Assembly (NCBI GenBank): GCA_019057475.1
Contig: DXJO01000010.1
Coordinates: 169,460 to 233,459, forward strand
Reading direction: 5' to 3'
Length of the DNA: 64,000 nucleotides
Source: Candidatus Thorarchaeota archaeon
GTDB taxonomy: Archaea > Asgardarchaeota > Thorarchaeia > Thorarchaeales > Thorarchaeaceae
Each line of letters starts with the position of its first letter. Positions within the stretch are counted from its first letter, which is position 1. The notes under the pieces were generated by a model that was not told the origin of the DNA, did not search any database, and worked only from the letters and a program-made list of their open reading frames with translations. Of this stretch, positions 3,576-52,321 are shown one piece after another. The position numbers were made by a program, and so were the translations under genes.

Positions 3576-3650
3576 CCGTTCATTGTAAGTTGGACAAACT
3601 TTGACAGGGAGTCTTTGTCCTCCCAAGAGCGGCACTGGGAATATACTCCT
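3576..3650 (-). ncRNA. Candidate omega-RNA-like right end of element A
   Basis: Minus-strand sequence contains a CCCAG stem, a TGCCGCT loop and a TTGGG stem, then a second pairing GGACAAA with TTTGTCC, and ends at the element edge. Elements C and E have the same loop (TGCCGYT) with different but matching stem bases. In TnpB systems the guide RNA spans this end and takes its guide from the flank. Transcription is not shown; this is inference from position and shape. Confidence 0.35.
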
Positions 3651-3700
3651 TGAGGTCATTTTCCTGTCATTCAACCTCAAGAAACAGTGTCATGATTTGA

Positions 3701-3710
3701 GCATATAAGG
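3701..3710 (+). promoter_or_regulatory. Outward TATA-like box in element A
   Basis: GCATATAAGG is centred ~58 bp inside the left edge of element A and points at nuoJ. Archaeal start sites lie ~25 nt downstream, about 3730, which would favour the in-frame TTG at 3744 over ATG 3723. The same box occurs at the same distance in elements B, D and E. Confidence 0.5.
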
Positions 3711-3722
3711 TCGTATTCGAAA

Positions 3723-4046
3723 ATGTCCAATATCATCCAAGTTTTGAGCAGCTGTCTGCAACCCTTTGAGTTTATTCAGCTAATAGTCCTAATCCTGACC
3801 GTAGTCTTTTTTCTCTTGGCAATCGAGTACCGAAAGCTCTCATTTGCAGTGATCGCATTCGCAATTGGCAATGGTTTCCTGAGCCTTACCTTCTTCGCCC
3901 TCGGTGCCCCCTTTGTGGCTGTCTTCAACTTCAGCATGTTCTCAGGCGCCATCGCAATCCTGTTTCTTGCTGCTATGAGTCTTGAGGCGCCAGCAGAGGA
4001 GGAATGTCCGGAGGATGATGATTATTGTGAGGTGAGTACCCAATGA
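3723..4046 (+). CDS. nuoJ: NuoJ-like subunit, N-terminal half, with element-derived start
   Basis: Small membrane subunit of a complex I/Fpo-type proton pump. Three hydrophobic segments (about 18-36, 41-60, 67-86) and GAPFVAVFNFSMFSGAIAILFLAAM resemble the first helices of NuoJ; the tail after ~90 is acidic. NuoJ proper is longer; here the second half is the next gene, as in split FpoJ of methanogens. Codons 1-14 (MSNIIQVLSSCLQP) come from element A, and the NuoJ-like part starts immediately afterwards (FEFIQLIVLIL). No ATG exists between the element edge and the first helix, so ATG 3723 or TTG 3744, both inside the element, must be used. First gene of a six-gene run with overlapping ends. 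Confidence 0.75.
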   Translation: MSNIIQVLSSCLQPFEFIQLIVLILTVVFFLLAIEYRKLSFAVIAFAIGNGFLSLTFFALGAPFVAVFNFSMFSGAIAILFLAAMSLEAPAEEECPEDDDYCEVSTQ

Positions 4047-10606: not shown

Positions 10607-10887
10607 GGGCATGCAACAGCTGCCAAGAACTTGTACAATCCTGGACATTTTGTAGGTGTTTAAAACATACTGTTCAGGATTGAGTGGTGTGGATGTTCAA
10701 TGCAGATTGCTAGGACCTCCATGCGATTTGGTCGCCGCCAGTTGGACGGAGACAGAAAACGCCTGTGGAGAGGACGTGAGACTTGTCGCAGATCCAGTAG
10801 GATCTGCAGAGCAGACCTCAATGAATCAGGAACCGAACATCAGTCAAGGACATTGCTGTCCAAGATTGTGCAAGTTTCGGGCAACGG
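10607..10887 (+). mobile_element. Element B: ~281-bp non-autonomous element
   Basis: Near-identical by eye to element D (40928-41208, opposite orientation) over its whole length. Its left end GGGCATGCAACAGCTGC resembles the left ends of A, C and E. CTTGTACAATCCTGGACA at 10630-10647 reappears inverted at 10857-10874 with 2 of 18 bases changed, a subterminal inverted repeat. The right end has a hairpin GGACA-TTGC-TGTCC and ends GGCAACGG. No protein gene is credible inside. The left end faces the 75-codon gene; the right end stops 5 bases from the stop codon of the next gene. Confidence 0.75.
10658..10666 (-). promoter_or_regulatory. Outward TATA-like box in element B
   Basis: GTTTTAAAC on the minus strand, ~55 bp inside the left edge, points at the small membrane-protein genes. 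A start site near 10637 would be expected. Element D has GTTATAACC at the same place. Confidence 0.4.
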
Positions 10888-16087: not shown

Positions 16088-16230
16088 CCTGGTTGCCTCA
16101 ACAACTGGATGGAACAGTCTTTGAAAAGGGTTGCCAATAGCTCCAAGAATCTTGGACAGACTTGGACACTTATTAGATAGTCGTCTGATGAAACACTTTT
16201 TGTGGAGTTTGAATTCTATTGCTGTTAGCT

Positions 16231-16237
16231 ATTATAG
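16231..16237 (+). promoter_or_regulatory. TATA-like box for the TnpB-like gene
   Basis: ATTATAG lies ~60 bases before ATG 16297, predicting a start site near 16261 and a ~36-base leader that contains GAGGTAG at 16284-16290, a reasonable ribosome-binding site. Confidence 0.45.
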
Positions 16238-16296
16238 CCCTAATTCTGTATGAGTTAATATTCTTCATCTAGGACCACGTTTTGAGGTAGTGGTTG

Positions 16297-18429
16297 ATGA
16301 AGTCAGAAAAGCGGCGTCGTCCCCGCTCGTGCAAGACACCCGAGGCATCGAAACAGAAGACAATGGACGCCAACTATTATGGCTCTTCATCAACTACTTA
16401 CCTTGTAGAGTCCTTTGCCCTGAACTCCTGTCAACGCGAAGTAGCACGAAAGGGAAGGGGCAGAGAACCCGACCCCGCGTACAGACGAGACAGGGATAGT
16501 TGGACACAGCAGCTAGTCAGTGTAGCAAGAAAGTGTGGGAGAAAGGTCGACGACATAGACCTAGCGACTCTCACTCTACATTTTGATAACTATGTCAAGG
16601 TTGTCAATCTCATCCTCTCACGGATATACCGGACGGATGGCCGCGCACAGACACTTGGGGAATCACTCTCGAAGTATAGAGGCAGAGCTTACACTCTGCT
16701 AAGAGAGCAGAGAGACCTTTGCTATCAACACAATGATGAATACAAAGAACTAGTGTATGAACGACTTCATCGAAATGCGCTTGAGCATGCCGGCAGAACA
16801 CTGTTGGCTGATTGGACGCGGAGGCAACTCTTCAATGCTGCGATCAATCTGCTTCACGGGTCACATGATGATGCTCTACGACTTCTGAGAAGAAAGAATA
16901 TTCCCTCGGACTTGATTCGAAGATTGCGGGACAGTTGCAATGCAGTGAAGAAGAATGGTTCCGGATATCATTACGCTCTTAGTGTTCTAAGGCAGATTCG
17001 TCTTACTCTTGATAGTCATATTCTAGATACTCTCAGTATCAAGATCAGTTGGCGTGGAAGACAGAGGAAGAAGGTGTCTTCCTTACTTGCAAAGGGGTCT
17101 CCAGACTTTCAGTATGTCGAGAACCTTGTAGAGAACGAGCTCCGGAGCTGGGCAAAGAATGGATACTCTTTCACCGTCCCGCAACTAAGAAGCCTCAGTC
17201 TTGATTTCAGCGCAAGCACTGAGAACTCCATAGGTCAGGGATACTGGTTCACTATTGATTCAGAGAGAGAGAATGAGATCATGCTGCACCTTAAGCTTCC
17301 TCCGGGGATAGATGGAAGAGAACACAGTGATTCCCCCTACAAGTCAAAGACCCTGACCTTCAGATTCCTTGACTGGTTGCCAAGAGCTGCGGCAAAAGAT
17401 GCTGATAAGGCAAACAGAGCTGAGGAGACCGGTGACTATCATCGAGGTGACCAGTTGAGGTTCAGAGCTGCAAAGTTCTCAGACATGCATGAACAACTCA
17501 TGAACACCATTCAGTTCCAGCAGGTGGTTCATAGACTATCAAGGCTGAAACAAAGGAAGAGGAGTGATTCTACAGAGATTGCAGACCTAGAAGCAAACGC
17601 CCAGAGACTCAAGAGCTCCCGACGGAGTGCTCCTCCAAGACTTCTCTTGAGAGGGCAGAGGGTCATCCTCCAGATTCCCTTTCTCTCGCCCAACGGTACA
17701 GTGAGCTCCAGAGTCCTAGGAGAGAGAGAATACACGACCAAGGCAGGAGCTGATAGGGGATTAAGAGTACCAGTTGCCCTCTCGGTTGAGAAAGACACCG
17801 AGTATGTAGACCTGTACATATCAGTAGAGTCCCTCATTGCGAAGAGGATGACACTGAGGAAGAATGCGTCGGTCCTACAGTCAGAGGTGGACAGGAGAAG
17901 AAACAACTGGGAGCGAAAGCGGCCCGGACAGACTTATCCCCGGTTCCTCTTCAAGAAGATGAGGCATCTGGAAGCCACATGGAAGAAGGTACGTCGTCTC
18001 GACCGCGAGATTGCTCGCATTATTGCATCAAAGACAGTGTGGTTCTGTGAAGGCCATCGGGTGAAGAAGGTGTTCTTCGAGGACCTGCGGAGCTTCCAAG
18101 CTAAAGGTGGTCTTAGGGACCTGTCGTGGTCGCTGAATACGAACCTGTGGGGAAAGATCATCGACACGGTCAGATACATGCGAGAGTCTCTTGGTCACTC
18201 ACCCTATAGTGTGTGGACTGTGAACCCGCGGTACACTAGCCAGACATGCCATGTCTGTGGCGAGAGAGGTGTCAGGGTTGAGAATGAAACCTCGAAGACA
18301 AAGAAGAAGGGAGGAGAGTACTTCTATTGCGAAAAGTGTGGTTCTCATTTTCACGCTGATATAAACGCAGCAAGAAACATAATTCATGTTCAACCAAGAT
18401 CCAGTGCCGTTCCTGGACGGACAGCTTGA
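16297..18429 (+). CDS. Expanded TnpB/Cas12-like RuvC nuclease, 710 residues
   Basis: RNA-guided nuclease family by its C-terminal half: RuvC-I in GADRGLRVPVAL (Asp ~486), RuvC-II in VFFEDLRSF (Glu ~595), a zinc finger with Cys 651/654 (TCHVCG) and 678/681 (CEKCG), and RuvC-III in HADINAARNI (Asp ~688). All three acidic residues are present, so it should be active. Ordinary TnpB is ~350-450 residues with RuvC-I near 190; here ~485 basic, helix-rich residues precede it, putting it in the size class of small Cas12 or Fanzor proteins. ATG 16297 follows GAGGTAG; TTG 16294 is the alternative. The gene's 3' end contains the hairpin of the candidate omega-RNA. No CRISPR array or cas1/cas2 is present. 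Confidence 0.88.
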   Translation: MKSEKRRRPRSCKTPEASKQKTMDANYYGSSSTTYLVESFALNSCQREVARKGRGREPDPAYRRDRDSWTQQLVSVARKCGRKVDDIDLATLTLHFDNYVKVVNLILSRIYRTDGRAQTLGESLSKYRGRAYTLLREQRDLCYQHNDEYKELVYERLHRNALEHAGRTLLADWTRRQLFNAAINLLHGSHDDALRLLRRKNIPSDLIRRLRDSCNAVKKNGSGYHYALSVLRQIRLTLDSHILDTLSIKISWRGRQRKKVSSLLAKGSPDFQYVENLVENELRSWAKNGYSFTVPQLRSLSLDFSASTENSIGQGYWFTIDSERENEIMLHLKLPPGIDGREHSDSPYKSKTLTFRFLDWLPRAAAKDADKANRAEETGDYHRGDQLRFRAAKFSDMHEQLMNTIQFQQVVHRLSRLKQRKRSDSTEIADLEANAQRLKSSRRSAPPRLLLRGQRVILQIPFLSPNGTVSSRVLGEREYTTKAGADRGLRVPVALSVEKDTEYVDLYISVESLIAKRMTLRKNASVLQSEVDRRRNNWERKRPGQTYPRFLFKKMRHLEATWKKVRRLDREIARIIASKTVWFCEGHRVKKVFFEDLRSFQAKGGLRDLSWSLNTNLWGKIIDTVRYMRESLGHSPYSVWTVNPRYTSQTCHVCGERGVRVENETSKTKKKGGEYFYCEKCGSHFHADINAARNIIHVQPRSSAVPGRTA

Positions 18430-18459
18430 TGTCCAAGTTTGTCCAAATTACAATGAACG
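18395..18459 (+). ncRNA. Candidate omega-RNA 3' part, right end of element C
   Basis: TCCAG (18400-18404), loop TGCCGTT and CTGGA (18413-18417) form a hairpin overlapping the last codons of the nuclease gene; a doubled heptamer and the element edge follow. Overlap with the 3' end of tnpB and extension to the right end is the known layout of omega-RNA. The guide would be the flank from ~18460. Confidence 0.4.
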
Positions 18460-18522
18460 ATATCAGTTTTGGTGTATCACTTGTGCAGAATGCTTATCCG
18501 TTCTTGATGTTACAGCAGAAGC

Positions 18523-40927: not shown

Positions 40928-41208
40928 CCGTTGCCAGAAACTTGTACAATCCTGGACATCAATGTCCTTGACTGATGTTCGGTTCCTGATTCATTGAGGT
41001 CTGCTCTGCAGATCCTGCTGAATCTGCGACAAGTCTCACGTCCTCTCCACAGGCGTTTTCTGTCTCCATCCAACTGGCGGCGACCAAACTACATGGAGGC
41101 CCTAGCAATCAGCATTGAACATCCACACCACTCAATCCTGAACAGTATGTTATAACCCCTTACAAAATGTTTAAGATTGTACAAGTTCTTAGCAGCTGTT
41201 GTATGCCC
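40928..41208 (-). mobile_element. Element D: ~281-bp non-autonomous element, second copy of B
   Basis: Read on the minus strand it runs GGGCATACAACAGCTGC ... GGCAACGG and is near-identical by eye to element B. A perfect hairpin GGACAT-TG-ATGTCC lies near its right end. It fills most of the 330-base gap 40836-41166; nothing else is seen there. Its left end (41208) faces the alpha/beta hydrolase and supplies its start codon. No target duplication is visible. Confidence 0.75.
41147..41156 (+). promoter_or_regulatory. Outward TATA-like box in element D
   Basis: ATGTTATAAC, ~56 bp inside the left edge, faces the hydrolase gene. A start near 41178 would favour the internal ATG 41203 over ATG 41167; both lie in the element. 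Confidence 0.5.
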
Positions 41209-52099: not shown

Positions 52100-52186
52100 G
52101 TCCTAGCATAAAGTGGCTCTGAGCTATTAAGGGGTTGCAAACAGCTGCTGTAAAGTTGGACATATCTGGACAATTCCATTGTGGGC

Positions 52187-52194
52187 TTTATATA
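52187..52194 (-). promoter_or_regulatory. Outward TATA box in element E
   Basis: Minus strand TATATAAA, ~58 bp inside the left edge, the best TATA of the family. Predicted start near 52162, upstream of both the 25-codon leader frame (TTG 52173 lies slightly before it) and ATG 52099. Confidence 0.5.
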
Positions 52195-52244
52195 GACCAA
52201 TACGACATTGATCTCTGAGGAATATGACACACCTGTGAAGGTTC

Positions 52245-52321
52245 CTCACGGAGTAGTCCAGTGCCGTTTTCTGGACGTACTAGACTTCGGTGTCCAACTT
52301 CGTACAACTTACAATGAACGG
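52245..52321 (+). ncRNA. Candidate omega-RNA-like right end of element E
   Basis: GTCCAG (52256-52261), loop TGCCGTTTT, CTGGAC (52271-52276) form a hairpin equivalent to those of C and A, followed by the element edge. If transcribed it could act in trans with the nuclease of element C. Inference only. Confidence 0.35.

Follow-up and report, generated by a model that had tools for sequence, protein, structure and literature searches.

A second guide RNA scaffold in the first codons of an Asgard TnpB-like nuclease gene is followed by a short guide that co-evolves with the gene's own promoter and may serve RNA-guided autorepression

A 64,000-nt stretch of DNA from a Thorarchaeota (Asgard) genome, referred to below as the window, contains a mobile element of 2.3 kb that retains only a tnpB-like nuclease gene and the two element ends. 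The 3.3-Mb assembly holds several further copies and fragments, and complete relatives of about 8.6 kb carry, in addition to tnpB, a tnpA gene and a divergent giant gene. In the window copy as in its relatives, the guide RNA scaffold of the right end has a second copy, with hairpin and pseudoknot, in the first codons of tnpB, and the 12 nt that follow it resemble a site in the gene's own promoter (Table 1). An earlier reading of the DNA from its letters alone (the sequence-only reading) had proposed a defined element bounded by inverted doubled heptamers in an Asgard-type genome. Both proposals held: the heptamers are identical at 16 of 17 positions, the same chromosomal site is empty in five congeners and the host is a thorarchaeon. 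The sequence-only reading lacked the putative self-targeting 5′ guide, the IS607 ends, the 8.6-kb parent element and the status of the window copy as a deletion derivative.

The right-end scaffold was compared over 30 distinct right ends. All have a common hairpin, and its loop forms a 7-bp pseudoknot with the seven bases at the end of the scaffold; 96.7% of the cells were paired and the covariation was 0.270, against 0.130 ± 0.013 for shuffled sequences. The scaffold is conserved, and the sequence beyond it is variable and corresponds to the flank. By this comparison the right end is an omegaRNA with the flanking DNA as guide, the normal arrangement for TnpB, and the transposon-encoded guide expected by the sequence-only reading is accounted for by this conserved scaffold. 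No Rfam match was found in the 64-kb window, and a strict search for the omegaRNA pattern in the same genome returned two more right ends, both at copies or remnants of the tnpB family.

For the internal scaffold, 29 distinct sequences were available. In these, 96.6% of the cells were paired and 8 of the 12 pairs showed changes on both sides. Covariation reached 0.573, compared with 0.262 ± 0.022 after shuffling and with at most 0.136 when the partners were slid against each other. As the internal hairpins were chosen by a search that favours pairing, the percentage of paired cells is biased towards structure; more weight attaches to the covariation and to the slid controls.

The 12 nt directly after the internal scaffold match the copy's own promoter 116–154 nt upstream, on the same strand and directly 3′ of the motif YTGDT ([TC]TG[GTA]T), which resembles a target-adjacent motif (TAM). 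The match amounted to 10–12 of 12 positions in 41 of 45 copies and was perfect in 23, whereas the opposite strand and the second-best sites remained at background, mostly 7–9. In all 41 matching copies the motif had G at −3 and T at −1. Of the four non-matching copies, L010 has an upstream region unlike the others, L015 and L018 have a tnpA remnant in the promoter's place and L056 matches at 9 of 12. Identity between guide and target was about 0.9–1.0 across the 12 nt and fell to background beyond position 14. Seven copies lay outside the set on which the hypothesis was formed; six of them matched at 11–12 of 12 beside the motif, and the seventh, L116, was matched by eye beside the variant CCGGT and counted as at least 10. 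In a separate observation on the guide-coding DNA itself, this DNA is preceded by GGT, most often TGGT, in L022, L050, L055, L101, L123 and L132.

The match between guide and promoter is largely specific to each element lineage. The 45 copies are related within clades and are not independent; 16 guides mutually differ at four or more positions. Over 16 distinct guides, the summed TAM-anchored match was 174, compared with 90.7 ± 7.8 and a maximum of 130 in 20,000 permutations of scrambled pairings. Guides paired with the promoters of other copies reached at most 9 of 12 beside the motif. There is no mutual match between distant copies of one genome, whereas sister copies match.

Co-evolution of guide and target was shown on a protein tree of 40 copies, on which 97 of 121 guide changes shared their branch with the identical change in the target; permuted pairings gave a mean of 5.5 and a maximum of 15 (200 permutations). 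This test took only copies in which guide and target agree at nine or more positions, which favours agreement, and the permutation ignores relatedness; the within-sequence control and the cross-copy comparison, which are not biased in the same way, agree with it. Matched changes amounted to 42/42 at positions 1–5, 22/22 at positions 8–9, 1/4 at position 6 and 24/42 at positions 10–12, while the control positions 15–20 of the same sequences gave 1/28. In copies read by eye whose guide starts on a codon boundary, changes at the third codon positions 3 and 9 were matched in 21 of 21 cases, so that selection on the protein does not explain the agreement. Position 6 was the least often matched among positions 1–9, a hint that this base may not need to pair.

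TATA-like sequences (CTTAAATA, TTTATATA) were found about 14–28 nt downstream of the target start wherever a simple pattern matched; it did not match in 21 of 40 copies, many of which have a sequence like TTTATATA by eye. From these positions, the target lies upstream of the putative TATA box or adjoins it.

The open reading frame at 16294–18429 encodes 711 amino acids from a TTG codon or 710 from the ATG at 16297. The RuvC residues D487, E596 and D689 (711-residue numbering; D486, E595 and D688 in the shorter form) are invariant in 38 relatives, and C652, C655, C679 and C682 of the longer form make up a CxxC...CxxC zinc ribbon, in agreement with the full catalytic triad and four-cysteine zinc finger that had been proposed from the letters. 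With a ratio of nonsynonymous to synonymous substitution rates (dN/dS) of about 0.19 against copies that are 92% identical, the gene is under purifying selection. Pfam returned the Cas12f1-like TNB domain (PF07282, 9.8e-16). Two NCBIfam profiles matched over the RuvC part only and below their cut-offs: guided_TnpB with 60.7 bits (cut-off 100) and Cas12f2 with 62.7 bits (cut-off 450). Since this long, outlying family misses the guided_TnpB cut-off, we file the protein as TnpB-like.

An alignment-based structure model (predicted local distance difference test score, pLDDT, 80; predicted template modelling score, pTM, 0.72) shows disordered residues 1–36 followed by a long helical REC-like lobe and WED/RuvC parts, the domain names being our own reading. 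The predicted-disordered residues are mostly those whose codons contain the internal RNA. The approximately 485 residues before RuvC-I, which had been remarked on for their length, are modelled as the REC-like lobe of the same protein; an unrelated fused gene was rejected as their origin, this part being present in all family members and folding as one lobe. When the fold was ranked against solved structures, Cas12f came first, followed by other Cas12 proteins, with Fanzor2 26th and SpuFz 47th, and sequence searches returned no Fanzor among their matches. Neither the fold nor the sequence ranking supports the suggested special closeness to Fanzor. On sequence and model, the protein belongs to a long, outlying TnpB/Cas12f-like family without particular kinship to Fanzor; among the described long-TnpB and Cas12 subtypes compared, none includes it. 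Membership of the TldR group was rejected in view of the intact catalytic residues. A viral or phage origin was also considered and rejected: scanning with the single protein returned no match, and the matches of a profile scan were limited to the C-terminal domain.

Table 1 Features of the element in the window, of its promoter and guide RNAs, and of related elements. Positions without a prefix are those of the window.
Feature	Position	Strand	Remark
GG core, left junction, IS607-type	16128..16129	+	through AAAAGG, flank identical to empty site of five congeners; other copies also start NGG|G
Left doubled heptamer TTGGACA-N3-TTGGACA, probable TnpA binding sites	16152..16168	+	function suggested by IS607 subterminal repeats (PMC6188088)
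TAM-like motif CTGTT beside the putative self-target in the promoter	16222..16226	+	family consensus [TC]TG[GTA]T
Putative self-target AGCTATTATAGC in the tnpB promoter	16227..16238	+	10/12 match to internal guide
TATA-box-like TTAATATT, downstream of self-target, predicted	16255..16262	+	position conserved in relatives
Stem P1, 5′ arm AGTGGTTGATGAAG, over start codon	16289..16302	+	
tnpB-like gene, 710 aa, Cas12f/TnpB fold, catalytic residues intact	16297..18429	+	
Internal hairpin AGCGG-CGTCGTCC-CCGCT, codons 5–11	16310..16327	+	covariation, 29 distinct sequences
Internal pseudoknot, 3′ strand GGACGCC	16365..16371	+	6/7 pairs here, 7/7 in most copies
Putative internal guide, 12 nt, AACTATTATGGC, codons N-Y-Y-G	16372..16383	+	
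Stem P1, 3′ arm CTTCATCAACTACT, directly after guide	16385..16398	+	
omegaRNA hairpin TCCAG-TGCCGTTC-CTGGA, overlapping 3′ end of gene	18400..18417	+	
Right doubled heptamer, inverted copy	18430..18446	+	16/17 identical to left copy
Pseudoknot strand and scaffold end, GAACGAT	18455..18461	+	consensus [GC]AACGGT
Predicted full-length guide, flanking DNA	18462..18480	+	position by homology to other copies
Non-autonomous relative, 189 bp, with both ends, omegaRNA hairpin and AATGAACGGT	52133..52321	+	
Non-autonomous relative, 188 bp, with omegaRNA hairpin and AACGGT	3576..3763	-	reverse orientation
Giant divergent gene	L162:1344-6812; L161:14404-19491; L157:14132-19531	-	complete elements

We consider it highly probable, from the sequence comparisons and by analogy with known systems, that the element encodes an RNA-guided autorepressor, in which the short internal guide leads the intact nuclease to its own promoter and binding occurs without efficient cutting. 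The nuclease would use two RNAs, both derived from its own transcript. The first, the right-end omegaRNA, would take a full-length guide from the flank and cut sites that have lost the element. The second, a mini-omegaRNA from the 5′ coding region with the same hairpin and pseudoknot, would have a match of about 12 nt to the promoter by the YTGDT motif and lead the nuclease to a site upstream of the TATA box, where the short match would permit binding but not efficient cutting, so that transcription of tnpB would be repressed, and perhaps that of the divergent giant gene in complete elements as well. TnpB makes its omegaRNA from its own mRNA (PMC10278001). Cleavage by TnpB requires about 12–16 bp, while an R-loop of about 7–8 bp already binds without cutting (PMC12803034). 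Cas9 led by tracr-L represses its own promoter, an 11-nt match being sufficient for repression without cutting (PMC11417352), and the CreR RNAs exert the same kind of autorepression in types I-B, I-E and V-A (PMC13131331). From sequence and analogy we infer that the protein binds the 5′ RNA, that repression is the outcome and that cleavage does not follow. With somewhat less assurance, we regard it as probable that the translated N-terminus doubles as a guide RNA and that the 12-nt guide/promoter pair of each copy, maintained by compensatory change, gives each element lineage a largely private off-switch, perhaps also for the giant gene.

Several points weigh against autorepression of this kind. 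For one TnpB ortholog, 12 nt is at the bottom of the range of matches that permit cutting, and some copies match over 14–16 nt, so that cleavage would be possible. The identity of the true TAM is uncertain, the TAM being deduced from conservation: GGGT or GGT stands at insertion sites and YTGDT at self-targets, with G at −3 and T at −1 in common. Where the guide DNA is preceded by GGT or TGGT, the element's own coding sequence might be bound or cut by the complex. In the window copy the match is only 10 of 12, one pair of the internal pseudoknot is broken and the right core is altered; for these reasons this copy is probably impaired. The 92% identical copies in two congeners match at 12 of 12. 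Finally, there is an additional stem (P1), in which the start-codon region of many copies pairs with the sequence directly 3′ of the guide; no more than 19 of the 45 copies lay above the 99th percentile of a within-gene null (Mann-Whitney p ~1e-10). Stem P1 might terminate the guide at 12 nt, or it might control translation; it was rejected as a universal feature, since it is strong in only part of the family.

Stem P1 is also the basis of the rival account that survives best, although we think it improbable: translational autogenous control, with the protein binding the mini-scaffold in its own mRNA, P1 hiding the start codon and the promoter match being secondary. A copy with a GTG start has its 3′ arm changed to fit, and the window RNA fold gave z = −3.66, both in keeping with such control. 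The covariation of 12 nt with a promoter site beside a TAM-like motif would then be unexplained; translational control could act in addition to autorepression. Far less probable is real cleavage of the promoter under the internal guide, as a means of limiting copy number or of triggering repair-dependent mobility. The invariant catalytic residues and the range of 12–16 bp in which one TnpB ortholog can cut (PMC12803034) would allow it, but selection should act against an element that cuts its own chromosomal copy, and 41 of 45 copies nevertheless keep the match; moreover, the matched length ends near 12 nt and not at 16 or more. We give hardly any credence to a promoter/coding repeat that arose without a guide RNA, as an operator pair for a DNA-binding protein such as the giant divergent protein or by recombination or gene conversion: two direct copies per element and the divergent promoter of complete elements would suit it, but the 12-nt sequence varies among copies while scaffold and flanking motif stay constant, and the start of the match, which is on one strand only, coincides exactly with the 3′ end of the scaffold and with the motif.

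RNA-guided autorepression would place the element beside several known systems; in the manner of tracr-L and the CreR RNAs, it has a short partial match to its own promoter, next to a TAM-like motif. Cas9 tracr-L of type II-A (PMC11417352) likewise is a natural guide that takes an active nuclease to its own promoter; it is a longer form of a non-coding tracrRNA at a CRISPR locus, whereas the guide described here lies within the coding sequence of a Cas12-type nuclease in a transposon. The CreR RNAs (PMC13131331) have a partial promoter match and autorepression, the latter presumed here, and the type V-A effector Cas12a is the nearest in kind; they are associated with CRISPR and not with an IS607-type TnpB element. 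TldR proteins (PMC13418256) are TnpB-family RNA-guided repressors of transcription, as is proposed here, but have lost the nuclease and regulate other genes (flagellin), while here the nuclease is intact and the putative target is its own promoter. ISFba1 TnpB (IS607, 387 amino acids; PMC11061315) has GG ends, a right-end omegaRNA (also termed right-end element RNA, reRNA) with pseudoknots and a G-rich motif at the left end; the present protein is about 320 residues longer, its RNA has no Rfam match, and it has an extra candidate self-guide and a parent element with a giant third gene. In AmaTnpB (PMC10278001), a regulatory mRNA segment also acts on its own nuclease; it inhibits DNA cleavage in vitro by a mechanism left open by the authors and has no promoter-targeting guide. 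Cas12f and Fanzor2 share the RuvC/WED/REC fold family; the fold match is stronger to Cas12f, the present gene has transposon ends and an omegaRNA, in contrast to the CRISPR locus of Cas12f, and there is no eukaryotic context. To our knowledge, no CreR RNA overlaps an open reading frame.

A literature search whose coverage of the key TnpB papers was incomplete found no description of a TnpB that targets its own promoter. If the proposal is correct, a mobile element controls its RNA-guided nuclease through a second guide within the nuclease's own codons, and TnpB transposons have RNA-guided autoregulation that precedes CRISPR or stands apart from it. Short guides are already known to bring about autorepression of Cas9 and of some CRISPR effectors; to meet this logic again in a transposon TnpB with an intact nuclease would suggest a repeated origin or one that precedes CRISPR. 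Such guides might be found elsewhere by searching the 5′ region of tnpB or cas12 genes for another copy of the scaffold, and the 45 natural guide/target pairs are ready data for asking which positions of a guide count when binding is not followed by cleavage.

The doubled heptamers recur at the ends of many other copies. Left ends follow the pattern NGG|G(T/C)..., about 22 nt and TTGGACA-N3-TTGGACA, and right ends TGTCCAA-N3-TGTCCAA...CAAT(G/C)AACGG, followed by variable DNA that begins with T. Published marks of IS607 elements are GG ends, GG targets, subterminal repeats and absence of target duplication (PMC6188088). In the present family, the empty sites at the G000:C53 copy and at the left end of the window copy showed insertion at GG with no duplication beyond this core, and the multiple subterminal repeats, the doubled heptamers, lie inside both ends without long terminal inverted repeats. 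At the G000:C53 copy the empty site of relatives reads AATGGGTTCCGTAACTGAGG and the insertion lies at that GG. Because of the empty sites and the GG ends, the element is assigned to the IS607 type by sequence comparison. The left junction of the window copy falls exactly behind the GG. On the right side, about 38 bp of flank bounded by GG and CC have the opposite orientation to that in the five congeners (18461–18496), as if the serine recombinase had flipped the element together with its flank, and the right core has AACGAT in place of AACGGT.

The complete elements L161, L162 and L164 have the order left end, tnpA, giant gene (reverse), tnpB and right end. Their tnpA, which adjoins the left end and is absent from the window copy, encodes a serine recombinase with an N-terminal MerR-type helix-turn-helix; the C53 tnpA has a Pfam Resolvase match. 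Compared with these, the window copy is by its sequence a deleted and slightly decayed derivative of the complete element. The giant gene product has about 1,700–1,940 amino acids and a PD-(D/E)xK-like motif (GRVDLVLF..EIKT). It had no match of weight in Pfam, NCBIfam, PADLOC or PDB sequences, and a fold search with its first half gave weak RecA/KaiC-like matches only.

Matches to the nuclease at E ≤ 0.001 were present in 34 of 59 related genomes, in some cases confined to the shared C-terminal domain. A single family of the phylum harbours the family proper, and a genome can have as many as 19 matches. Among GTDB genomes, matches beyond the shared C-terminal domain were essentially all in Thorarchaeota, the exceptions being one full-length match labelled Lokiarchaeota and two partial ones labelled only 'archaeon'.

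The two non-autonomous relatives in the window (Table 1) have ends and guide scaffold without any gene. In genome G033, about ten elements of about 400 bp (L059–L068) retain both ends, the last 35 or so tnpB codons and the guide scaffold; the flank differs in each, so that many guide-only relatives occur within one genome. At L162:670-690, the left end after GG starts with TTCCGTAACTG; the same 11 nt occur in the right flank and in the empty site. The window also contains two 243-bp repeats with similar doubled-heptamer ends (10631–10873 and 40942–41184), and sequence overlapping these repeats is present at dozens of places in this genome and its congeners.
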